Positions 2,645 to 63,834 of a stretch of 64,000 nucleotides of DNA are shown in pieces. The notes under the pieces are model-generated. The model made no database searches. It saw only the letters and a list, made by a program, of their open reading frames with translations, and was not told the origin of the DNA. The DNA comes from Chloroflexota bacterium (GTDB taxonomy: Bacteria; Chloroflexota; Anaerolineae; Aggregatilineales; Phototrophicaceae): NCBI GenBank assembly GCA_016223085.1, contig JACRPS010000010.1:62001-126000 (forward strand), written 5' to 3'. Each line of letters starts with the position of its first letter. The first letter of the stretch is position 1. A program made the translations under genes and the position numbers.

Positions 2645-2674
2645 GTAGGGACGGGTTTATAAACCCGCCCCTAC
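2645..2674. repeat. dispersed palindrome, copy 1
   Basis: 30 bp; left arm GTAGGGACGGGTTTA, right arm its near-complete reverse complement ending CCCCTAC. Outer arms are shared with 13 other copies, inner arms are specific to this one. Lies between the divergent deoxynucleoside kinase and transsulfuration genes. Confidence 0.85.
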
Positions 2675-6503: not shown

Positions 6504-6515
6504 GATGGATATAAC

Positions 6516-6542
6516 AGGGGACATGGCACACCATGTCCCTAC
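6516..6542. repeat. dispersed palindrome, copy 2
   Basis: 27 bp; arms AGGGGACATGG and CCATGTCCCTAC around a 4-base centre. It lies just upstream of the pseudouridine synthase start and is followed at once by an ACTGAAAACCGATAACTGA-type repeat (6541-6569). Confidence 0.8.
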
Positions 6543-10040: not shown

Positions 10041-10068
10041 GTAGGGACACGATATATCGTGTCCCTAC
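10041..10068. repeat. dispersed palindrome, copy 3
   Basis: 28 bp, perfect; left arm GTAGGGACACGATA. Identical to the copy inside a coding region at 62809-62836. Sits upstream of the aminotransferase. Confidence 0.9.
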
Positions 10069-11267: not shown

Positions 11268-11280
11268 GCAATAGCATGGG

Positions 11281-11308
11281 GAGGGACATGGCGCCGCCAT
11301 GTCCCTAC
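11281..11308. repeat. dispersed palindrome, copy 4
   Basis: 28 bp; arms GAGGGACATGGC and GCCATGTCCCTAC. Between the converging DinB-like and aconitase genes, where it could also serve as a two-way terminator hairpin. Confidence 0.8.
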
Positions 11309-15103: not shown

Positions 15104-15131
15104 GTAGGGACACGGTATACCGTGTCCCTAC
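15104..15131. repeat. dispersed palindrome, copy 6
   Basis: 28 bp, perfect; left arm GTAGGGACACGGTA. Between the converging DsbA-like and HIT genes, three bases before the HIT stop codon. Confidence 0.9.
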
Positions 15132-24903: not shown

Positions 24904-24931
24904 GTAGGGACATGGTATGCCGTGTCCCTAC
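24904..24931. repeat. dispersed palindrome, copy 8
   Basis: 28 bp; left arm GTAGGGACATGGTA faces TGCCGTGTCCCTAC. The two unpaired positions would be U-G wobbles in a plus-strand transcript. Between two rightward genes. Confidence 0.8.
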
Positions 24932-25926: not shown

Positions 25927-26876
25927 TGCCCGAGCTGGCTGTTATCATCGTCACGTGGAACGTGCGCGATCTGGCGCTGGACGCCCTGCGCAGCCTGTAC
26001 GCCGATCTGGAGACCAGCGGCCTGTCGTATGAGGTAATCGTCGTGGACAGCGCCTCTTCCGACGGCACGCCGCAGGCGGTTGCCGCCGCTTTCCCCCAGG
26101 TCAAGCTGATTGCCAGCGCCGACAATCCGGGGTTTGGCCGCGCCAATAATCTGGCGCTACGGCAGCTTGGCTTCGGCCAGCCGGACGCCCTTGATCTGCC
26201 CAAAGCGGTTTATCTGCTGAATCCTGACACCATCACCCAGCCGGGCGCGACGCGCACGCTTTACGAGGCGCTGTTGGCGGATGACCGGGTCGGGCTGGTC
26301 GGCGCTCAACTGGCGTATGGCGACGGCAGCTTCCAGCATGGCGCGTTTGCCTTTCCGGGGCTGCGGCAGTTGTGGGTGGAGTTCTTCCCAGCACCGGGGC
26401 GTTTGATCGAAGGCCGCTTTAACGGACGGTATCCGCGCAGTTTATACACATCCGGCCAGCCGTTTTCGGTAGACTTCACGCTCGGCGCGACGATGATGCT
26501 GCGGCGCGAGGTTATCCAGCAGACCGGCCTGTTTGACGAGCAGTTTTTTATGTACTGCGAAGAAATTGACTGGGCGTGGCGCATCCACAAGGTCGGCTGG
26601 GACGTGCGCTGCGTACCCTCGGCGCGGGTGGTTCATCTGGGCGGGCAGAGCACCGGGCAGGTGCGCCCGCGCAGTCTGGTGGACCTGTGGACGAGCCGTA
26701 TCAGGCTGTTCCGCAAGCATTATCCAGTCTGGAAGTTCGCGCTGGCGCGGCTGATGATCGCGCTTGGCATGTGGTTGAAACTGCGGCAGGCGCGGCATTC
26801 TTCCCCTGATGCTGCTGAAAAGAGCGCGCTGCTCGATGCTTACCGGACGATCTATCACCTGGCGCTGCGACCATGA
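25926..26876 (+). CDS. family 2 glycosyltransferase (rhamnosyltransferase-like)
   Basis: 316 residues, GT-A fold, cytoplasmic face of the membrane. AVIIVTWNVRDLALDALRSL opens the nucleotide-sugar domain, VDSASSDGT and ASADNPGFGRANNLAL follow, YLLNPDT carries the DxD-equivalent, and FMYCEEIDWAWRIHKVGW is the catalytic-base region typical of WbbL-like enzymes. The C-terminus has amphipathic basic helices (RIRLFRKHYPVWKFALARL). It transfers a sugar to a lipid-linked or surface glycan; donor unknown. Overlaps the PhnD-like gene by one base and the next GT2 by four. Confidence 0.9.
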   Translation: MPELAVIIVTWNVRDLALDALRSLYADLETSGLSYEVIVVDSASSDGTPQAVAAAFPQVKLIASADNPGFGRANNLALRQLGFGQPDALDLPKAVYLLNPDTITQPGATRTLYEALLADDRVGLVGAQLAYGDGSFQHGAFAFPGLRQLWVEFFPAPGRLIEGRFNGRYPRSLYTSGQPFSVDFTLGATMMLRREVIQQTGLFDEQFFMYCEEIDWAWRIHKVGWDVRCVPSARVVHLGGQSTGQVRPRSLVDLWTSRIRLFRKHYPVWKFALARLMIALGMWLKLRQARHSSPDAAEKSALLDAYRTIYHLALRP

Positions 26877-27628
26877 CGACCTTAGCCGCGATCATCCTCA
26901 CTTATAACGAAGCCCGCCATATCACCGACTGCATCGAGAGCGTCCGCTTTGCCGATTTTGTGATCGTGTTTGATTCGTTCAGCACCGATGCGACGGTCAA
27001 ACTGGCGCGGGCCGCCGGCGCGGAAGTGATCCAGCGGCGGTTTGACCATTACGCCGGGCAGCGCAACGCGGCGCTGGCGGCGGTGACGGGCCGCGCCGAC
27101 TGGGTGCTGTTTGTGGATGCCGACGAGCGTGTGACGCCGGAACTGGCTGCTGAAGTGCGTGCCGTGATCGAGCGCGATGCCTGCGCCGGTTATCGCATCC
27201 CGCGTTACAACTACATCTTCGGCAGATTGACACGCGGCGCGGGCTGGTATCCCGATTATCAGACGCGGCTGCTGAAGGCCGGCGCGGCGCGGTATGACCC
27301 GGAACGCCAGGTGCATGAACTGGTGCTGCTTGACGGCGACGAGGGTACGCTATGCCAGCATTTCATCCACTATAACTACGACAAGCTGGAACAGTTCATC
27401 CGCAAGCAGCAGCGGTATACGGCCTACGACGCCCGCATCCTGTACGAGCAGGGTATCCGCCCGAAGCCACAAAATTATATTTTGCAGCCCTGGCGGCAGT
27501 TCTGGTGGCGCTTTGTCACGCTGAAAGGCTATCGGGATGGCTGGCACGGCGCGCGCCTCAGTTTGTTGATGGCGTGGTACGAGTTCCGCAAGTACGTGCT
27601 GCTGCGTGGTCTGTGGCGGAAACAATAG
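26873..27628 (+). CDS. family 2 glycosyltransferase, WaaE/KdtX type
   Basis: 251 residues. AAIILTYNEARHITDCIES, VFDSFSTDATVKLA, GQRNAAL and the DxD-containing WVLFVDADERV place it in the WaaE-like GT2 group; FHYNY-like HFIHYNYDKLEQF and a basic C-terminal region (YRDGWHGARLSLLMAWYEF) match the membrane-proximal tail of that group. Adds a hexose or heptose to a core-like acceptor; the acceptor is unknown. Starts within the last codons of the previous GT2 (ATGA). Its stop codon TAG is the first triplet of a dispersed palindrome. Confidence 0.9.
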   Translation: MTTLAAIILTYNEARHITDCIESVRFADFVIVFDSFSTDATVKLARAAGAEVIQRRFDHYAGQRNAALAAVTGRADWVLFVDADERVTPELAAEVRAVIERDACAGYRIPRYNYIFGRLTRGAGWYPDYQTRLLKAGAARYDPERQVHELVLLDGDEGTLCQHFIHYNYDKLEQFIRKQQRYTAYDARILYEQGIRPKPQNYILQPWRQFWWRFVTLKGYRDGWHGARLSLLMAWYEFRKYVLLRGLWRKQ

Positions 27629-27653
27629 GGGCATGTCACCGACATGCCCCCTA
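27626..27653. repeat. dispersed palindrome, copy 9 (CACCG-loop subtype)
   Basis: 28 bp; TAGGGGCATGT, loop CACCG, ACATGCCCCCTA. Shares the asymmetric loop with the copy at 53816. Contains the stop codon of the preceding glycosyltransferase. Confidence 0.85.
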
Positions 27654-27661
27654 CAATGGCG

Positions 27662-27689
27662 GTAGGGACACGGCATGCCGTGTCCCTAC
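27662..27689. repeat. dispersed palindrome, copy 10
   Basis: 28 bp, perfect; left arm GTAGGGACACGGCA. Eight bases from the previous copy and eight bases from the hpf stop, between converging genes. Confidence 0.9.
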
Positions 27690-39369: not shown

Positions 39370-39397
39370 GTAGGGGCGCACGACCTTGCGCCCCTAC
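39370..39397. repeat. dispersed palindrome, copy 11
   Basis: 28 bp; arms GTAGGGGCGCA and TGCGCCCCTAC around CGACCT. Lies after yggT in a 255-bp gap that otherwise shows no gene. Confidence 0.85.
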
Positions 39398-51556: not shown

Positions 51557-52651
51557 TATCAGGGTGAAGGCAAACAGCAGCGTGACCAGCCAGATGGTAC
51601 TGTTACGCAGGGCGCGGAAGCGGCGCTGGTCGGCGGCGTACAGGATGACGGCGATTTGCAGGCCGACGATAAAGCGCAGGATGCCCAGTGGTTCGCGGTA
51701 GGTCGAAAATGGCACAAATGGCATGATGGCCGCGTTGGTGAACAGCAGAAACGTGTACGCCGACCAGTTCGGCCAGGCATGCCAGCAGCGCCACAGCGCC
51801 CACAGCGTCGGCACGATTACAAACGGGACAAGAAACGCGCTGAAAATCAGCAGCAAAGCGGCACGCGCTGCTGGTGGCGTTTCGAAGATGATGCGGGCGA
51901 CTCCGGCGAAAGGGATGATCTCAAACGGCGTTGCCATCGCCCCGCCGCTGTTGATACCCAACATGCCGAAGTGTTGATATAAAACAATCTGCCAGACGGC
52001 GAAGGGAATTAGCGTGACTGCGCCGAATATCAGCGCCGTTTTGAGTTGCTTTCGTGACAGCAGATACAATCCGTAACCGAATGGAAACAGCAGTGTGGTT
52101 TCCCGTGCCAGCGCCGCCAGCGCAAATAACACAGCGCTCCACAGCCAGCGTTCGCGCTGCGCCAGTGCGATGCCGCCGAGCACGAGCGCGTAGGCCAGTG
52201 GTTCGGGTAAGCTGAGGCGCACCGCGCCAAACGTGCCAATGGTGAGGCCGTAGGTGAGCGCGTACCACCGGCTGACCCGTTGCTGGACGAGCAGGTGTTC
52301 CAGCAGCGCCGTGCCGGCAGCCAGCGCCACCAGATTGACGATCAGCAGCGCCCAGGGAATCAGCGGCGTTTGGCCTAACGCCAGGGCGCGCCCTAGCATC
52401 GGCAGCAAAATGCGCTGGAAGCGGTAGGCAGATACGTCAATGTACTGCGCGGCGGTGCCGGGGTCACGCGCGATGTAGTATACAAACTGGCCGTCGTACC
52501 CTTCCGTCCCGGCGGGGTCGCGCTCACTGAAGTGCGTGCCGAGCGTAACCAGCGCCAGCGGGTCGCCGCCATTCCGTGCCAGGACAAGCCCAACGTAAAG
52601 CAGGCACAGCGCGGCGGCCACCATCCAGGGACGGATGCGAGTCTTGAGCAT
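51554..52651 (-). CDS. polytopic membrane protein of the surface-glycan region
   Basis: 365 residues, about nine membrane segments. After the first segment comes GTEGYDGQFVYYIARDPG, a loop found in uncharacterised GT-C-like membrane proteins, then YRFQRILLPMLGRALALG. Conserved charged residues within segments (LARETTLLFPFGYG) fit the same group. No catalytic proof is visible. It is the only leftward gene in the polysaccharide region and diverges from the O-antigen ligase gene across 48 bp. Confidence 0.7.
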   Translation of the reverse strand: MLKTRIRPWMVAAALCLLYVGLVLARNGGDPLALVTLGTHFSERDPAGTEGYDGQFVYYIARDPGTAAQYIDVSAYRFQRILLPMLGRALALGQTPLIPWALLIVNLVALAAGTALLEHLLVQQRVSRWYALTYGLTIGTFGAVRLSLPEPLAYALVLGGIALAQRERWLWSAVLFALAALARETTLLFPFGYGLYLLSRKQLKTALIFGAVTLIPFAVWQIVLYQHFGMLGINSGGAMATPFEIIPFAGVARIIFETPPAARAALLLIFSAFLVPFVIVPTLWALWRCWHAWPNWSAYTFLLFTNAAIMPFVPFSTYREPLGILRFIVGLQIAVILYAADQRRFRALRNSTIWLVTLLFAFTLI

Positions 52652-52699
52652 CAGGTGTATCCTTTCCAGCAGATTGATTCTACTACAAGGTTTCCAAAC

Positions 52700-55051
52700 G
52701 TGAGAAAACCGTCGGAACTGCTCACCCGCGCGGTGGTTATCATCCTGTGCAGTTTCATCCTGGGGAACGCCGCCACCTTTAACGGCGTGCTGAATCCCGG
52801 CGTCGGGGCGCTGACGCTGGGCATCACCGCCATCACCGTAGTTGCGTGGCTGCTGGTTCGCTGGCGGCGCGGCTGGCAGTGGTATCGAACGCCGCTGGAT
52901 GGCGCGTTCCTGCTGTGGGGGCTGGCGTTTGGGGTGTCGTTGCTGGCGAACCCGGAAGTGTGGCGGCGCAGCGCGATTGGCCTATGGTACGCGGGCGCTT
53001 ACATCGGCGTGTGGTACGTGCTGCTGGACGCGCTGGCGAACGGCGGCCTCAAACGTGACATGCTGGTGGACGGTCTGCTCGTGACCGGTGTGGTGGTGCT
53101 GCTGTTTGGCTTCTTGCAGCTTGTTAACTGGGTCGGTGCGTATGGCCTGAACGGCGTGCCGCGCCCGGTGAGCCTGTTTGGTAATCCCAATTTCCTGGGC
53201 GCGTTTTTGATCGTGCTGATTCCGCTGGCGCTGTCGCGTATTGCGGCCAGTCGCAGTCAGTTTATTCAGATCGTGATGAGCATCTACACTGCGCTTGCGC
53301 TGGTGCTGCTGTTCCTGTCGAATTCGCGCGGCGCGTGGCTGGGCTTTGTTGCCGCGTTTGTCGTATGGACGGCGCTGCTGTTGGCGTTACGACGGCAGCT
53401 CTCATTCCGTTACTGGCGCGGCTGGTGGAACGCGCGGCGCGGCGGCACCAGGGCGCTGGTGCTGCTGGCTGTCGTTAGCGCGCTAGTAGTCGCCGTAGGT
53501 GCAGCCGTGCTGTTTGTGCGGTCATTCACGGTCAGCGGGCGCGATACCGGGCTGCGGACCGAATTGTACGCGGCGGCGGTGCAGATGTTTGCCGAAAAGC
53601 CAATCACGGGACAGGGTTTATTTACCTATGGGCGCGAACTGGTGCGCCTGCCGGGCATCGAACCCGACAAGCCGCACAGCCACGCGCATAACGTGCTGCT
53701 GCAAGTGGCCGCCGAACTGGGATTGATCGGGCTAGTGGCACTGGCGGTGACGCTGGTGATGATCGTGAGGGTGGTTAGAGAGAATTGGCAGGTGCTTGAA
53801 TCATCAGGAACCGGAAGGGGCCTGTCACCGACAGGTCCCTACAGATCGGGCAATAGAATCATGCTGGCCGGGGCAACTGCCGCTGTTGCTGCGTTTGCGG
53901 TTCACCAGTTGACTGACGTGCCGGCGATGATGCCGTCCATTGCGCTGACGGGGCTGATCGCGCTGGTGCTGGCGGTCGCGCCAGTTGAGCCGCAGCCAAT
54001 CACAGCCAACTGGCGGCGCGTGGGGCAGCCGGTCGGTGTGGCCACGCTGTGGCTGATGGTGTTAGCCAGCGGCCTGTGGAGCAACCGAGTTTATGGCGAT
54101 TATTTCGCGGCGCTGAAATACGCGGTAGATACCGACGATTACCGGGGCGGGGCGGAACGCTTACAGCCGGTCATCAATGCCGATTTGAATTTCAGCCTGT
54201 ACCATCTCGAACAGGGTTTTTTGTATGGCATGGCGGCGAACGCGGGTGATAGGGACGCGGCGCAGCAGGCCATCGCTGCTTATCAGCACTTTCTCGAACT
54301 TGACCCCGGCTATGCGCTCGGCTGGGCGAACCTGGCCGCGTTGCGCTGGCAGGTCGGAGAGCGCGAGGGCGCGGTAGAGGCGATGTCCCGCGCCGCCGAG
54401 CTTGACCCGGAAATCTGGCAGTATGCGTTCAATCTGGGTCTGTACGCCGAAGCAATAGGTGATACCGACGCGGCGGAAGTCGCTTACCGGCAGGCATTAA
54501 CGGTCTATCCCGATATTGTGCTGTATCCTGAATGGCAGGGGTCGGCGCTGCGCGTACAGGTGGGCAACGTGTACGAAATCGGCCTGAGCGCGCCGGCGAT
54601 GACGGCCTATCAGATCGCTGTCAAGCGGCTGGACAATGCGCGAATCGCGTGGCAGACCAACGGGCTGCCGGACTCAGTGCAGCGCGACGGCATGGAATTG
54701 ATTCTGGCGCTGGAAGGGCGCGACCGGGAGAGTGCCTTAAGGCTGTTGGCGAACATGGAGCGCCGTGCTGTAACCAAAGCCGATCAGGCGTGGGTCCACC
54801 TGGGACGAGCGCGGGTAGCGCGCTACGACGGCAACGACGCACTGGCCGAGGAGGAACTGGACGCGGCGCGGGAAGTGCTGAAGCGTAAGCCGCTGGACAA
54901 CGACGACGAGGACGCGCTCAACATCGCCTACGCGCAGTTCTTGCGGCTGGCGATTCCGCGCTGGTTCCTGCCACAGGTGTATTATCCAGTGGATAACCCG
55001 GTGCTGGTGTATATGATTGAAAATACTTACCACACCTTGATTGCTAGTTGA
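52700..55051 (+). CDS. O-antigen ligase/polymerase-family membrane protein with TPR tail
   Basis: 783 residues. About twelve membrane segments with the Wzy_C core: LFLSNSRGAWLGF, then GQGLFTYGRELVRLPG and PHSHAHNVLLQVAAELGLIG, the loop histidines used by WaaL/Wzy enzymes that join or polymerise lipid-linked glycans. The C-terminal ~280 residues are TPR-like (HFLELDPGYALGWANLAALR, AAELDPEIWQYAFNLGLYAE). I use GTG 52700 (AAGG nine bases upstream), because a longer frame runs antisense into the neighbour. Residues ~372-382 (RGLSPTGPY) are an in-frame dispersed palindrome. The last codons and stop come from the left end of the IS982 element. Confidence 0.85.
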   Translation: MRKPSELLTRAVVIILCSFILGNAATFNGVLNPGVGALTLGITAITVVAWLLVRWRRGWQWYRTPLDGAFLLWGLAFGVSLLANPEVWRRSAIGLWYAGAYIGVWYVLLDALANGGLKRDMLVDGLLVTGVVVLLFGFLQLVNWVGAYGLNGVPRPVSLFGNPNFLGAFLIVLIPLALSRIAASRSQFIQIVMSIYTALALVLLFLSNSRGAWLGFVAAFVVWTALLLALRRQLSFRYWRGWWNARRGGTRALVLLAVVSALVVAVGAAVLFVRSFTVSGRDTGLRTELYAAAVQMFAEKPITGQGLFTYGRELVRLPGIEPDKPHSHAHNVLLQVAAELGLIGLVALAVTLVMIVRVVRENWQVLESSGTGRGLSPTGPYRSGNRIMLAGATAAVAAFAVHQLTDVPAMMPSIALTGLIALVLAVAPVEPQPITANWRRVGQPVGVATLWLMVLASGLWSNRVYGDYFAALKYAVDTDDYRGGAERLQPVINADLNFSLYHLEQGFLYGMAANAGDRDAAQQAIAAYQHFLELDPGYALGWANLAALRWQVGEREGAVEAMSRAAELDPEIWQYAFNLGLYAEAIGDTDAAEVAYRQALTVYPDIVLYPEWQGSALRVQVGNVYEIGLSAPAMTAYQIAVKRLDNARIAWQTNGLPDSVQRDGMELILALEGRDRESALRLLANMERRAVTKADQAWVHLGRARVARYDGNDALAEEELDAAREVLKRKPLDNDDEDALNIAYAQFLRLAIPRWFLPQVYYPVDNPVLVYMIENTYHTLIAS
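53816..53842. repeat. dispersed palindrome, copy 12, inside a coding region
   Basis: 27 bp; AGGGGCCTGT, loop CACCG, ACAGGTCCCTAC. In frame in the O-antigen ligase gene, in a loop between two membrane segments. Same loop as the copy at 27626. Confidence 0.85.
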
Positions 55052-58838: not shown

Positions 58839-58866
58839 GTAGGGGCACGGCATGCCGTGCCCCTAC
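58839..58866. repeat. dispersed palindrome, copy 13
   Basis: 28 bp, perfect; left arm GTAGGGGCACGGCA. In the 178-bp gap after the GT87-like gene, itself flanked by TCTATCCATAAACCC and an inverted GGTTTACGGATAGG, which make a larger imperfect hairpin. Confidence 0.9.
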
Positions 58867-59438: not shown

Positions 59439-60962
59439 GTGGTGCTGGCATTGATTCTGCTGCTGGCGCTGATGTTACGCCTGGTCAATCTGGGGACTCG
59501 CTCCCTGTGGTATGACGAGGCGTTTGCCGTGTTATTCAGCGAAAAAGGGCTGGACGCGATGCTGGCCGGCACGCTGACGCCGGTTGCCGGCGGCGCGGCG
59601 GATATTCACCCGCTGCTGTATTACAGCACGCTCAATCTGTGGATGGCCGTATTCGGGCAGAGTCCGGCAGCCGTGCGGCTGTGGAGCGTGTTACTGGGTG
59701 TGGCGACGGTCGGCGTGATGTACCTGCTGGGGCGCGATTTGTTCGGCGCTAGAACCGGGCTGGTGGCAGCACTCATCACAGCAGTCGCGCCATTCCATGT
59801 CCAGTATTCGCAGGAAACGCGGATGTACGCGCTGCTCGGCCTGCTGCTGCTGCTGGCGACGTGGTGTTTTGTGCGGGGCAACCCCTCCCCCCAACCCCCT
59901 CCCCGTATACGGAGAGGGGGAGTAGGCTGGTGGCTGGCGTTTGGGGTGCTGGCGGCGCTGGCGATGTACACGCAGCAGTTGGCGGCGTTTTATCTGATCG
60001 CGCTGGGACTGGTGCCGGTGCTGGCGCGGCGGCGCGACCTGTTGGTGCGGGTGGCCCTTGGCACGGCAGTGGCGGTCATTTTGTACCTGCCCTGGCTGGT
60101 GAACCTGCCGAGTCAGTTTGGCAAGGTGCAGTCATATTACTGGCTGTCCCCCCCCAACATCGGCCAACTGCTGCTGACCATTCGCTCATTTCTGGTAGTG
60201 CATCTGGAAATCCCTGCGCCGGCTTCGACGCTGGGCTTCCTCGGTTCGATTTTCCTGATTGCATTCCTGATGATCCAGGTGGTTATTGTGCTGCGCGGGC
60301 GGCGCAGCCGAGGCGAACGCACACCGCTGCTGCTCGTGCTGTGGCTGGCTGCCGCGCCGGTGGCGCTGCTGTGGCTGGTGTCGCAGCTTCAGCCGGTGTA
60401 TCTCATCCGGGCGCTGCTGCCGTCGGCCCTGATGCTGTATCTGGCGCTGGCGTGGCTGTTCAACCGCGCCGGGCTGCCGCGCCCGATTGCTGCCGTGATT
60501 GGAGGGGGGGCGCTGGCGCTGGCGGTGGTCGGCCTGTATCACCAGTATACATGGTCAACCTTCCCCAATTCGCCATATCCGGCTGCCGTTGCCGCCATTC
60601 GCGCCGAATGGCAGGCTGGTGACGTGGTGATTCACCAGGACAAACTGTCGGCACTGCCGATGATTTATTACGAGCGCGATCTGCCGCAGCGTTACCTGCG
60701 CGATCTGCCGGGCAGCGGCGACGATACGCTGGCGCTGCCGACGCAGCAGGCGCTGGGTTTGCTGGCGGACGAGTCGGTGGAGCAGGCGGCAGCGGGCGCG
60801 CGCCGGGTGTGGTGGGTGGTGTTCGACTTTGCCGAACGCCAGTATGCGGCGGCGGGGCGTCCTGAACTGCGCGAAGCGGTCGCCTGGCTGGACGAACAGT
60901 ATGCTGAAACCGGGCGCTGGACGTTCAACGATCTGATACTGGTTCGCTATGAGGAGCGATGA
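59439..60962 (+). CDS. GT39-family glycosyltransferase (ArnT/PMT-like)
   Basis: 507 residues, about eleven membrane segments. Transfers a sugar from a polyprenyl-phosphate donor outside the cytoplasmic membrane. Motifs: LGTRSLWYDEAFAVLF with the catalytic D-E, ADIHPLLYYSTLNLW, and APFHVQYSQETRMYALLG. Start is GTG at 59439 or 59442. Residues ~147-161 (NPSPQPPPRIRRGG) are an in-frame C-rich dispersed repeat in a loop between two membrane segments. Its C-terminal ~110 residues are extracellular. It overlaps the next gene by four bases. Confidence 0.9.
   Translation: MVLALILLLALMLRLVNLGTRSLWYDEAFAVLFSEKGLDAMLAGTLTPVAGGAADIHPLLYYSTLNLWMAVFGQSPAAVRLWSVLLGVATVGVMYLLGRDLFGARTGLVAALITAVAPFHVQYSQETRMYALLGLLLLLATWCFVRGNPSPQPPPRIRRGGVGWWLAFGVLAALAMYTQQLAAFYLIALGLVPVLARRRDLLVRVALGTAVAVILYLPWLVNLPSQFGKVQSYYWLSPPNIGQLLLTIRSFLVVHLEIPAPASTLGFLGSIFLIAFLMIQVVIVLRGRRSRGERTPLLLVLWLAAAPVALLWLVSQLQPVYLIRALLPSALMLYLALAWLFNRAGLPRPIAAVIGGGALALAVVGLYHQYTWSTFPNSPYPAAVAAIRAEWQAGDVVIHQDKLSALPMIYYERDLPQRYLRDLPGSGDDTLALPTQQALGLLADESVEQAAAGARRVWWVVFDFAERQYAAAGRPELREAVAWLDEQYAETGRWTFNDLILVRYEER
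59880..59922. repeat. C-rich dispersed repeat inside a coding region
   Basis: AACCCCTCCCCCCAACCCCC on the left, CCCGTATACGGAGAGGGGGA on the right; in frame in the GT39 gene. Confidence 0.8.
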
Positions 60963-62161
60963 TGGCGCAACGCCGCGCTGATGGTTTAATTTTCCTGCTG
61001 GCGATAATCGTCGTCCTGGCGGTGATGGTTATCATCACGCACAACGCTTTCACCGCGCCATACCCCGGCCTCAACGATTTTATGTCACGCTGGGAAGGCG
61101 CGCGCTCCTACTGGGTTGATCGGCTGAATCCGTATGGCGAACAGGCCAGCCTGAATATTCAGCAGCGCATTTACGGGCGGCCAGTCGTGGAAGGGGAAGA
61201 CCCCGGTTATTTCGCCTATCCGTTTTATACACTGTTCGTGGTCTGGCCGCTGGTGGTGCTGCCGTATAGCTGGGCGTCGGCAGTCTGGATGGTGCTGCTG
61301 GAAGTCAGTCTGGTTGTTTCGCTGTTCCTGCTGCTCGATCTATTCCGCTGGAAACCCCGGCCAACCCTGCTGGCGGTGCTCATGGTATGGACGTTGGTGT
61401 TTTATTTCTCGTCGCGCGGGTTAATCCTGGGTCAGCCGGGGCTGCTGGTCGCTTTTCTTGAGATTTTGGCGGTGTGGGCGCTGGTCAAACAATGGGATGG
61501 CCTCGCGGGGGTGGCGCTGGCGCTGTCCACGATTAAGCCGCAGATGGGCTTTTTGATCGTGCCGTTCCTGCTGCTGTGGGGGCTGCGGGCGCGGCGCTGG
61601 CGTCTTGTCGGCGCGTTCGCCGCCGTGTTGGGCGCGCTGCTGCTGGCCTCGTTCCTGCTGCAACCGTCGTGGCTGTCCGACTGGCTGGCGCAACTGGCGC
61701 TGTATCCGTCCTACACGGCGCTGGGGTCGCCGGTGTGGATTATCACCCGGTATTATCTCGGCCTGGGGGACGCGGCGGAACTGGCTGTTGCCGCCGCGCT
61801 GGTCGCGCTGCTGCTGTGGGCATGGTATACCGTGCTGGTACAGGCGAGGCAGGAGCGCTTCCTGTGGACGGTTGCGCTGACGCTGACCGTCACGCACCTG
61901 ATCGCGCCGCGCACGGCCACGCCGCATTACGTCGTGTTCCTGCTGCCGCTGATCTTTTATCTGGCGCTGATTGCCCGTAAACGGCGCAGCGGGCTGTGGG
62001 TTGGCCTGGTGTTGCTGGCGCTGCTGGTGCTGCCCTGGCTGCACTTTGTAGCGACGGTCGAGGGCGAGTTTGAGCATCCGACCGTGTATCTGCCGCTGCC
62101 GTTCGGGATGCTGGCGCTGTTGTGGCTGACCCGGCGGCGGTGGTGGGAGCGCGCCACGTGA
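60959..62161 (+). CDS. GT87/DUF2029-type polytopic glycosyltransferase
   Basis: 400 residues, about ten membrane segments. The first loop PYPGLNDFMSRWEGARSYW with RLNPYGEQASLNIQQRIYG and FAYPFYTLFVVWPLVVLPY is the standard layout of the alpha-mannosyltransferase-like GT87 family; LSTIKPQMGFLIVPFLLLW is its second signature. It uses a polyprenyl-phosphate sugar donor. Start ATG 60959 (or the second ATG at 60962) overlaps the GT39 stop; its own stop overlaps the next GTG by four bases. Confidence 0.85.
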   Translation: MMAQRRADGLIFLLAIIVVLAVMVIITHNAFTAPYPGLNDFMSRWEGARSYWVDRLNPYGEQASLNIQQRIYGRPVVEGEDPGYFAYPFYTLFVVWPLVVLPYSWASAVWMVLLEVSLVVSLFLLLDLFRWKPRPTLLAVLMVWTLVFYFSSRGLILGQPGLLVAFLEILAVWALVKQWDGLAGVALALSTIKPQMGFLIVPFLLLWGLRARRWRLVGAFAAVLGALLLASFLLQPSWLSDWLAQLALYPSYTALGSPVWIITRYYLGLGDAAELAVAAALVALLLWAWYTVLVQARQERFLWTVALTLTVTHLIAPRTATPHYVVFLLPLIFYLALIARKRRSGLWVGLVLLALLVLPWLHFVATVEGEFEHPTVYLPLPFGMLALLWLTRRRWWERAT

Positions 62162-63834
62162 AACGCTTTCCGCTGCCGGTCTGGCTGTTTGCGCTGGCGC
62201 TGGCGATTCTTACGTCGCTGCCGTATCTGGTCGGCTGGTGGAGCACGCCGGCAGGCTGGCAGTACAGCGGCGCGGCGGCAGTGCCGGTCGGCGCGCAGGT
62301 GGATTTTAACAGCCATCTCGCTAAAATGTGGCAGGGCAGTCGCGGCCAGTGGGACTATCACCTGCTGTTCACGCACGAGCCGCATCCCGGCCTGCCGCTG
62401 GTGCAGGGCTTTTACGTGGCGCTCGGCGCGCTGGCGCAGGTTACGCTGCTCAGCCTGCCCGCTGCGTACCATATCGCGCGGTTTATCCTCACAATTGGTC
62501 TGGTGCTGGCGCTGTGGGCGTTCGCCAGCCATTTTCTGGAAAAACGGAGCGAACGCTGGCTGGCGCTGCTGTTTGGCACCATCGCCAGCGGGTGGAGCTG
62601 GCTGCTGCTGGCGCTTGACCCGGCCATGACCGCGCAGCTTTCCCCGATTGAATTCTGGCTGACCGACGCCTTCAACCTGCTTGGCGCGTTTGTCATGCCG
62701 CACTTCGCTGCGGTGGTGATCGTGCAGATTGTGATCGTGCTGGCGTTCGAGGGGTGGGTCAGAACCCCTCCCCCTGACTCCCTCTCCATACATGGACAGG
62801 GGGGGCAGGTAGGGACACGATATATCGTGTCCCTACCGGTGATCGTACTGACTCTGGCGCTGGCGGCGCAGGCGATCATCCAGCCATATGCGGCGCTGCT
62901 GTTTGGGCCGCTGCTGGTGATACTGGCGGGCTACCACGTCTTTTCGACGCAAAAGTTGTCACTCCGCCGCGCGCTGTGGCTGCTGCTGCCGCTTAACATT
63001 TATGCGGCGCTGATGCTGTACCAGTACGTGGCGTTACACAGCCATCCGGTCTGGAGTAGCTTTGCCGAGCAGAACCAAACCCTGTCACCGCTGGTGACAT
63101 ATTACCTCCTGGGTTATCTGCCGTTCATCCTCCCGATGGCGTTTGGCCTGCGCACTTTCCTGATGGACAGACCAGATGATCGCTGGTGGATGCCGATTCT
63201 ATGGGTGGCGCTGGTGGCGATGCTGCTGTACGCGCCGTTTCCGACGCAGCGACGTTATCTGCTAGGCGTACAGACGCCGCTGGCGATGCTGGCGGCTTAC
63301 GGCTGGTCGCGGGCCGTGCTGCCGTGCCTGTCGAGAAGGCTGCGTCCGCTGGCGTCCATCGTCTACTTTGGGCTGGCCTCGGTCGGGCTGATGGCTGTGA
63401 TTGCCGTGAATGCTGTGGCGCTGTCTCAGCCTGAAAGGCACACCGACGTATTTTACCAGCCCGATGAAGCGCGAGCATTCGACTGGCTGCGGCAGGAAAC
63501 CAATGATCGGAACGCGCTGGTGCTGACGGTGGCGGACGAATCCGGGCGCGGCAGCGGCGGGCGGCTGGTGGCGGCGCTGGGGCTGCGGGTGTACCTGGGG
63601 CACTGGATTGAAACGGCGGACTTTGCCGACAAAGTGGCAAACGTGCGCCACTTTTACGACCAGGCGACGACGGACGAGTGGCGCAAAACATTTCTTAAGG
63701 ATACGGGTGTTGCCTACATCTGGTATGATGAGTATGCCCGCGCGGTGGGGGATTGGAATCCGGCAGGCGCGGACTATCTGGAGCCGGTATTTACGTCTGA
63801 AAAGGTGACGATTTACCGGGTGAGCGGCCTGTAG
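62158..63834 (+). CDS. polytopic GT-C-like membrane protein carrying two repeat insertions
   Basis: 558 residues from GTG 62158, which overlaps the upstream stop (GTGA). About ten membrane segments; first loop DFNSHLAKMWQGSRGQWDYH with FTHEPHPGLPLVQGF, TQRR motif in YAPFPTQRRYLLG, and a soluble C-terminal domain (DEARAFDWLRQETNDRNALV). It is a paralogue of the protein at 44026-45615. Residues ~203-227 (TPPPDSLSIHGQGG, then VGTRYIVSLP) are the translation of a C-rich repeat and a dispersed palindrome placed side by side in the loop after segment VVIVQIVIVLAFEG. The paralogue has a shorter, unrelated loop there. Confidence 0.78.
   Translation: MKRFPLPVWLFALALAILTSLPYLVGWWSTPAGWQYSGAAAVPVGAQVDFNSHLAKMWQGSRGQWDYHLLFTHEPHPGLPLVQGFYVALGALAQVTLLSLPAAYHIARFILTIGLVLALWAFASHFLEKRSERWLALLFGTIASGWSWLLLALDPAMTAQLSPIEFWLTDAFNLLGAFVMPHFAAVVIVQIVIVLAFEGWVRTPPPDSLSIHGQGGQVGTRYIVSLPVIVLTLALAAQAIIQPYAALLFGPLLVILAGYHVFSTQKLSLRRALWLLLPLNIYAALMLYQYVALHSHPVWSSFAEQNQTLSPLVTYYLLGYLPFILPMAFGLRTFLMDRPDDRWWMPILWVALVAMLLYAPFPTQRRYLLGVQTPLAMLAAYGWSRAVLPCLSRRLRPLASIVYFGLASVGLMAVIAVNAVALSQPERHTDVFYQPDEARAFDWLRQETNDRNALVLTVADESGRGSGGRLVAALGLRVYLGHWIETADFADKVANVRHFYDQATTDEWRKTFLKDTGVAYIWYDEYARAVGDWNPAGADYLEPVFTSEKVTIYRVSGL
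62764..62807. repeat. C-rich dispersed repeat inside a coding region
   Basis: ACCCCTCCCCCTGACTCCCT on the left, ATACATGGACAGGGGGG on the right. Directly followed by a dispersed palindrome. Confidence 0.75.
62809..62836. repeat. dispersed palindrome, copy 14, inside a coding region
   Basis: 28 bp, perfect; left arm GTAGGGACACGATA, identical to the intergenic copy at 10041-10068. In frame in the GT-C-like gene, read as VGTRYIVSLP. Confidence 0.92.

Follow-up and report, generated by a model that had tools for sequence, protein, structure and literature searches.

How a short palindrome comes to be read in frame within the gene of a polytopic membrane protein is the question raised by an O-antigen ligase locus in the 64,000-nucleotide stretch of Chloroflexota DNA analyzed here (the window; Table 1). 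An earlier note on this DNA had described such a palindrome, read as RGLSPTGPY, between two membrane segments of the ligase. According to our preferred reading, to which we assign a probability of roughly 0.8, the palindrome represents one copy of a GTAG-ended, REP-like repeat, which survives inside genes where the frame is kept and the loop is permissive.

An in-frame palindrome in a predicted O-antigen ligase gene

Direct reading of the sequence confirmed that aggggcctgtcaccgacaggtccctac, at position 53816–53842, is translated in frame (codons AGG GGC CTG TCA CCG ACA GGT CCC TAC) as RGLSPTGPY, residues 429–437 of the listed open reading frame. The limits of the element are better taken as 53814–53842 (GAAGGGGCCTGTCACCGACAGGTCCCTAC on the plus strand), with a GTAG end bearing one T-to-A change. 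At the RNA level, folding of this element gave a stem of 11 pairs, including one G.U, with an ACC loop. The 81-nt stretch around it folds at −32.6 kcal/mol (z −2.8), and 2 of 200 shuffled sequences were equally good.

The product of the host gene is a predicted O-antigen ligase, as Pfam Wzy_C matches it (E 6.6e-21) and the top PDB match of its model in Foldseek is WaaL (7tpg, E 9.8e-6). The listed start is likely too early, since orthologues align from about residue 51–59 and several of them have stops upstream; the real start is probably the GTG at 52700. The 30 named relatives retrieved with the ligase carry titles that are mostly Anaerolineae or Chloroflexi, the closest being Aggregatilineales, an order of Chloroflexota.

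Table 1. Repeats and host genes in the window
Feature	Position	Strand	Remarks
Intergenic family member	2645–2674		GGGTTT core
Intergenic family member	6515–6542		weaker copy
Intergenic family member	10041–10068		
Intergenic family member	11280–11308		CATGGC core; convergent genes on either side
Intergenic family member	15104–15131		convergent genes on either side
Intergenic family member	24904–24931		
Family member, same subtype as the ligase copy	27625–27653		TAG (27626–27628) is the stop codon of gene 26873–27628
Intergenic family member	27662–27689		8 bp past the 27625 copy
Intergenic family member	39370–39397		
Predicted WaaL-type O-antigen ligase, C-terminal TPR domain	52532–55051	+	listed ORF of 839 aa; Pfam and fold
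GTAG-type palindrome, 29 bp	53814–53842		rare subtype, core CTGTCACCGACAG, end changed to GAAG
Intergenic family member	58839–58866		
PMT_2 (GT-C type) glycosyltransferase, polytopic	59439–60962	+	
CCCCTCCCC-type palindromic repeat	59880–59926		in frame in 59439–60962
Polytopic membrane protein	62122–63834	+	no Pfam match at E <= 0.001; hosts the 62763 and 62809 repeats
CCCCTCTCC-type palindromic repeat	62763–62807		in frame; adjoins the 62809 element
Perfect 28-bp family member ACACGATATATCGTGT	62809–62836		in frame as VGTRYIVSL in 62122–63834

The palindrome belongs to a dispersed repeat family

With up to 3 mismatches, the subtype RGGGRCNTGTCNNNGACANGYCCYY was found at 3 places in the window, two of which (27627 and 53816) match it exactly. 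These places match on both strands, giving 6 matches compared to 0.05 expected from shuffled sequences. The wider pattern AGGGRCN{6,22}GYCCCT was detected 10 times in the window (0.20 expected from shuffles). The copy at 27626, presented in the earlier note as intergenic, is of the same subtype as stated, but is not purely intergenic, as its TAG closes a gene. Genome-wide, the exact ligase-type subtype occupies five places, these two included.

The family follows the plan GTAGGGRC-core-GYCCCTAC, in which the outer arms are constant and the cores vary, most of them being self-complementary (ACGGCATGCCGT, ACGATATATCGT, GAACCGCCGGTTC, GGGTTTATAAACCC, and others). Our search with GTAGGGRCN{8,18}GYCCCTAC gave 631 matches in the 6.03-Mb genome and a single one with the reversed pattern. 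Within the genus, this pattern was counted 110 times in the nearest relative (G013) and 0–50 times in the other 15 genomes. At least one match was present in 105 of 301 genomes sampled across the phylum, our own counted, with 157 as the next highest count; some of the low counts may be due to chance, because the control pattern matches in a few genomes too.

In the sample used below for placement, 450 of 464 copies are 28–30 bp long. The GTAG pairs with CTAC at the opposite end of the repeat, GT...AC ends are found in 239 of 368 copies, and asymmetry is restricted to one base just outside the ends. At these flanks, A/G pairs were observed in 103 of 263 copies (75 expected), C/G in 57 (36 expected), and G/G in 10 (33 expected). 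The flank preferences are weak, and none of the target-site duplications of 1–6 bp tested on 368 copies was in clear excess. This end asymmetry hints, if weakly, at a polar, frame-preserving unit of 30 nt. The corresponding model, which we consider quite unlikely, is a frame-neutral unit in which the 28-bp palindrome is flanked on either side by a single non-palindromic base (C-GTAG...CTAC-A/C) and is inserted without target duplication, with polytopic loops serving as a shared sink for unrelated repeats of several families. As 28 bp and two end bases make 30 nt when no target is duplicated, each insertion would add ten codons.

A RAYT as the mobilizer of the family was not supported. Of three Y1 matches, one is in a long frame; the other two, small proteins tested with NCBIfam, are IS200-like (94 and 97 bits, cut-off 55) and stay below the cut-off for REP transposases (34.6 and 25.7 bits, cut-off 80). 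Moreover, small Y1 gene counts do not track element counts in the genus, as G013 with its 110 elements has no small Y1 match. A Y1_Tnp-like domain is located at G000:C8:173134–173466 (L003), in a frame of 1043 residues between stops, and Y1_Tnp-like matches in frames of at least 631 residues were seen in all 17 genus genomes searched.

The ligase loop is longer and carries repeat-like DNA in the nearest relatives

We aligned 15 same-genus orthologues to the ligase of the window genome (G000), leaving out G010, whose best hit (E 1.2e-6) was not a clear ligase orthologue. A conserved peptide at this site, which the earlier note had named as the observation that would speak against an inserted repeat, was not found, RGLSPTGPY being present in 0 of the 15 orthologues. 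Taken with the 0.05 matches expected in the window and the family count of 631 versus 1, this leaves a negligible probability for a chance palindrome within a conserved coding stretch.

The link from NW(Q) to the following helix has 7 residues in 10 of the 15 orthologues and about eleven in one, compared to 18–41 in the four nearest orthologues and 22 in G000. The G013 loop contains two CCTCCCC-type palindromes (one scored, the other recognized by eye), and the G005–G007 loops contain a worn CCCCTGACCCCCTCTC repeat, as read by eye. As the loops are longer and hold repeat-like DNA in the nearest relatives, the loop appears to have grown within this sub-clade and to have taken up unrelated repeats. 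The G000 loop exceeds the 7-residue form by 15 residues, of which the element covers only about nine, leaving ESSGTG and RSGN unaccounted for; its growth was thus not one clean insertion. None of the 15 orthologues offers an exact empty site for the palindrome, none being close enough.

An AlphaFold model of the ligase (26 sequences, pLDDT 89.4, pTM 0.87) places the peptide at model residues 376–384, flanked by helices 335–372 and 383–408, with pLDDT below 50 at 375–380. The position between two membrane segments therefore agrees with the model, where it is a loop between two predicted helices. From the WaaL layout, this loop would be on the cytoplasmic side.

Copies inside genes mostly avoid the TAG frame and are often found in polytopic membrane proteins

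Placement was analyzed in 1.93 Mb of the 6.03-Mb genome (all of contig C12, the window, and parts of C17 and C8), with genes called by our own codon-usage method instead of a standard gene finder. The 464 copies detected (5 in the reversed-sequence control) comprise 383 intergenic copies, 38 overlapping gene ends and 43 inside genes, while a random position of C12 falls inside a gene in 84% of cases. The 421 copies that are not inside genes lie in convergent (114), unidirectional (270), or divergent (37) settings. Convergent gaps are enriched, as they represent 16% of intergenic bases, and divergent gaps, with 29% of these bases, are depleted. Where the 3′ end of a gene lies in a copy, the TAG of the copy is the stop codon in 34 of 37 cases, the 27625 copy of the window among them.

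The in-gene set consists of 42 copies, C12:533089 having been dropped beforehand as a match judged to be due to chance. It includes six copies of score 3 (C12:746826, C12:1150092, C12:1314003, C17:214753, C17:259028, and C8:108910). C12:745866, C12:1314003, C17:212567, and C17:214753 fall in codons 1–14 of the called gene and may precede its real start. The TAG frame is avoided by 40 of the 42 copies, and in the two copies read at the TAG position the triplet is changed to GAG (C12:1373309) or CAG (the weak C8:108910). The 28-bp copies are read in the GTA frame (28), the AGG frame (3), or at the TAG position (1), the 29-bp copies in the AGG (6) or GTA (3) frame, and the one 25-bp copy at the TAG position. 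Among 28-bp copies with both frames open, GTA is used in 28 of 32 (p = 2e-5), a preference that is not explained by stop codons. The in-gene share is also higher for 28-bp copies (32/258) than for those of 29–30 bp (9/192; p = 0.005).

We observed that 25 of the 42 in-gene copies are in hosts with at least 4 predicted membrane segments, although such genes make up 18.9% of the coding length. Counted by gene, 15 of the 31 hosts are polytopic, compared to 5.9 expected (length-weighted permutation, p = 5e-5). Pfam analysis of 10 of these 15 identified six PMT_2 proteins, one of them under the curated cut-off, and one each of YfhO, DUF2298, and Wzy_C, with the 62122–63834 protein as the one lacking a match. 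In a YfhO-type membrane protein at C12:802496–805432 (L104:2496–5432, minus strand), five GTAG palindromes are read in frame, and a CTCAGCACT-type repeat lies close to the N-terminus.

The strong 11-pair hairpin and the bias toward polytopic hosts could suggest that the element has a function, its mRNA hairpin or its peptide slowing translation or tuning expression or membrane insertion, and that it is kept for this reason. In the same sense, the inner arms and stem are free of mismatches in 25 of the 42 copies inside genes; recent insertion, however, explains intact copies equally well. The element is not conserved at its site in the 15 orthologues, and the other 17 in-gene copies are in hosts with fewer than 4 predicted membrane segments. 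We thus consider a functional role very unlikely.

Other repeat families share hosts and loops

The earlier note counted the ligase as the third polytopic protein of the region with a repeat. This is true for the 52532–55051, 59439–60962, and 62122–63834 products, but the repeats are not all of one family: the glycosyltransferase holds a CCCCTCCCC palindrome, and the 62122–63834 protein holds both a GTAG copy and a repeat of another family. The CCCCTCTCC/CCCCTCCCC repeats, named here from the window, have no database name that we know of. Like the GTAG family, they are palindromic, dispersed, and in frame in the same or neighboring membrane proteins; they differ in sequence and are less numerous (23 places in 1.93 Mb with a narrow pattern, 6 of them inside genes). 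The loop at 59880–59926 varies in length among 8 syntenic orthologues. In G005–G007, the loop matching 62763–62836 contains CCCCTCTCC-like repeats and lacks the GTAG copy.

Among the GTAG host genes, 6 of 31 also hold another repeat family (1.1 expected, p = 1.5e-4), and 7 have at least two GTAG copies (1.65 expected). Such co-occurrence could reflect targeted insertion, in which the mobilizing machinery would prefer sites, such as other repeats or short sequences, that happen to be located in polytopic loops. The unrelated repeats within single loops (GTAG and CCCCTCTCC at 62763–62836, CCTCCCC in the G013 ligase loop) and the preference of 28-bp in-gene copies for one of two open frames point in the same direction. 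However, a host that tolerates one insertion would tolerate several, which produces the same co-occurrence. The flank preferences are weak, and the majority of copies lie between genes, which fits survival. We therefore regard targeting as doubtful and infer survival by selection.

Short CTCAGCACTCAG-type repeats in C12 and C17 (for instance at C12:957109–959343) are inside called genes at 17 of 19 places, and 11 places are in genes with at least 4 predicted membrane segments. The G013 loop that corresponds to the third element of C12:745843 contains a worn GTAG-like copy, recognized by eye, which may date from the same early insertion or from another.

Scored insertion sites lie in variable loops of their host families

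We measured length variability among orthologues at ten sites in five host families, which we chose from the 31 host genes and which are all polytopic. C12:746826 was left out (a weak copy that aligns without a gap), and the N-terminal copy in its host gene could not be scored. The ten sites have a mean percentile of 0.92, and of 0.88 without the closest sub-clade (p = 5e-6); the ligase site alone goes from 0.91 to 0.80. Judging from these alignments, the ten scored sites in the five chosen families are variable, indel-rich loops.

Avoidance of the membrane core was not detected by crude hydropathy, as 6 of 18 sites fell in the predicted core compared to 2.8 expected, nor for the ten sites, whose mean occupancy was 0.26 compared to 0.18. 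In our reading, 19-residue hydropathy windows fuse helices over short loops, and the result counts against either a strong loop claim or the method. The suggestion that insertion sites are always extramembrane loops is not supported here: hydropathy does not bear it out, and 17 of the in-gene copies are in hosts with few or no predicted segments.

Discussion

We propose that a mobile, GTAG-ended palindrome would have multiplied in this lineage of Anaerolineae (Chloroflexota). Copies falling inside genes would survive if the net insertion keeps the frame, the reading is free of stops and the extra residues are harmless. In the ligase, the harmless spot would be the short link joining two membrane helices, where the element lengthens the protein by some nine flexible residues and gives the mRNA a strong hairpin, apparently without harm.

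Part of this picture is already published. GTAG-tagged REPs, as excerpts of Di Nocera, De Gregorio and Rocco (2013; PMC3733652) describe them, are repeats of 20–40 bp with a high copy number and a GTAG end, reported in Chloroflexi and other phyla and located mostly downstream of genes, with TAG often being the stop codon; some copies are in genes, and inserts are suggested to be neutral in flexible linkers or loops. Our family resembles them in its size, its copy number, its GTAG end, its position mainly downstream of genes, in convergent or unidirectional settings, and its use of TAG as a stop. It differs in that GTAG is paired with CTAC in an almost fully self-complementary repeat, whereas in those excerpts GTAG tags one end only and stays unpaired. 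Their in-gene copies are noted for replication and repair genes (PMC3733652, same excerpts), whereas polytopic membrane proteins are over-represented here. GTAG REPs have an associated RAYT, whereas neither of the two small Y1 proteins tested here passes the REP cut-off. The Rickettsia palindromic elements, in the excerpted text of PMC2229807, are 105–146 bp long and fused in frame into protein genes, and a guanylate kinase with such an insert stays active. In-frame insertion is common to both (here 42 copies in 1.93 Mb), whereas our repeats are 28–30 bp long and belong to Chloroflexota.

The present family is thus a variant of the GTAG repeats in which the GTAG end is paired and polytopic membrane proteins are favored as hosts. 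The paired end, this bias and the repeated use of loops were not found in the excerpts of published descriptions examined. A literature search for “Aggregatilineales” with “palindromic” returned nothing, and no in-frame repeats in Aggregatilineales were found in a search that left most subscription papers aside. The passage of PMC4192349 that contains GTAGGGGC is a primer table and is irrelevant to the repeat.

For annotation, in-frame repeat peptides such as VGTRYIVSL, VGARHAVPL, and similar ones should not be taken for domains. Should the frame-neutral unit be true, the lineage would have a mobile repeat suited to decorating the loops of polytopic proteins. The case shows that membrane-protein loops of Chloroflexota can be extended by short palindromic repeats and that unrelated families share these loops. 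They flag sites where O-antigen ligases and GT-C type glycosyltransferases tolerate insertions, and permit a direct question, whether in-gene repeat insertions are targeted or merely filtered by selection.
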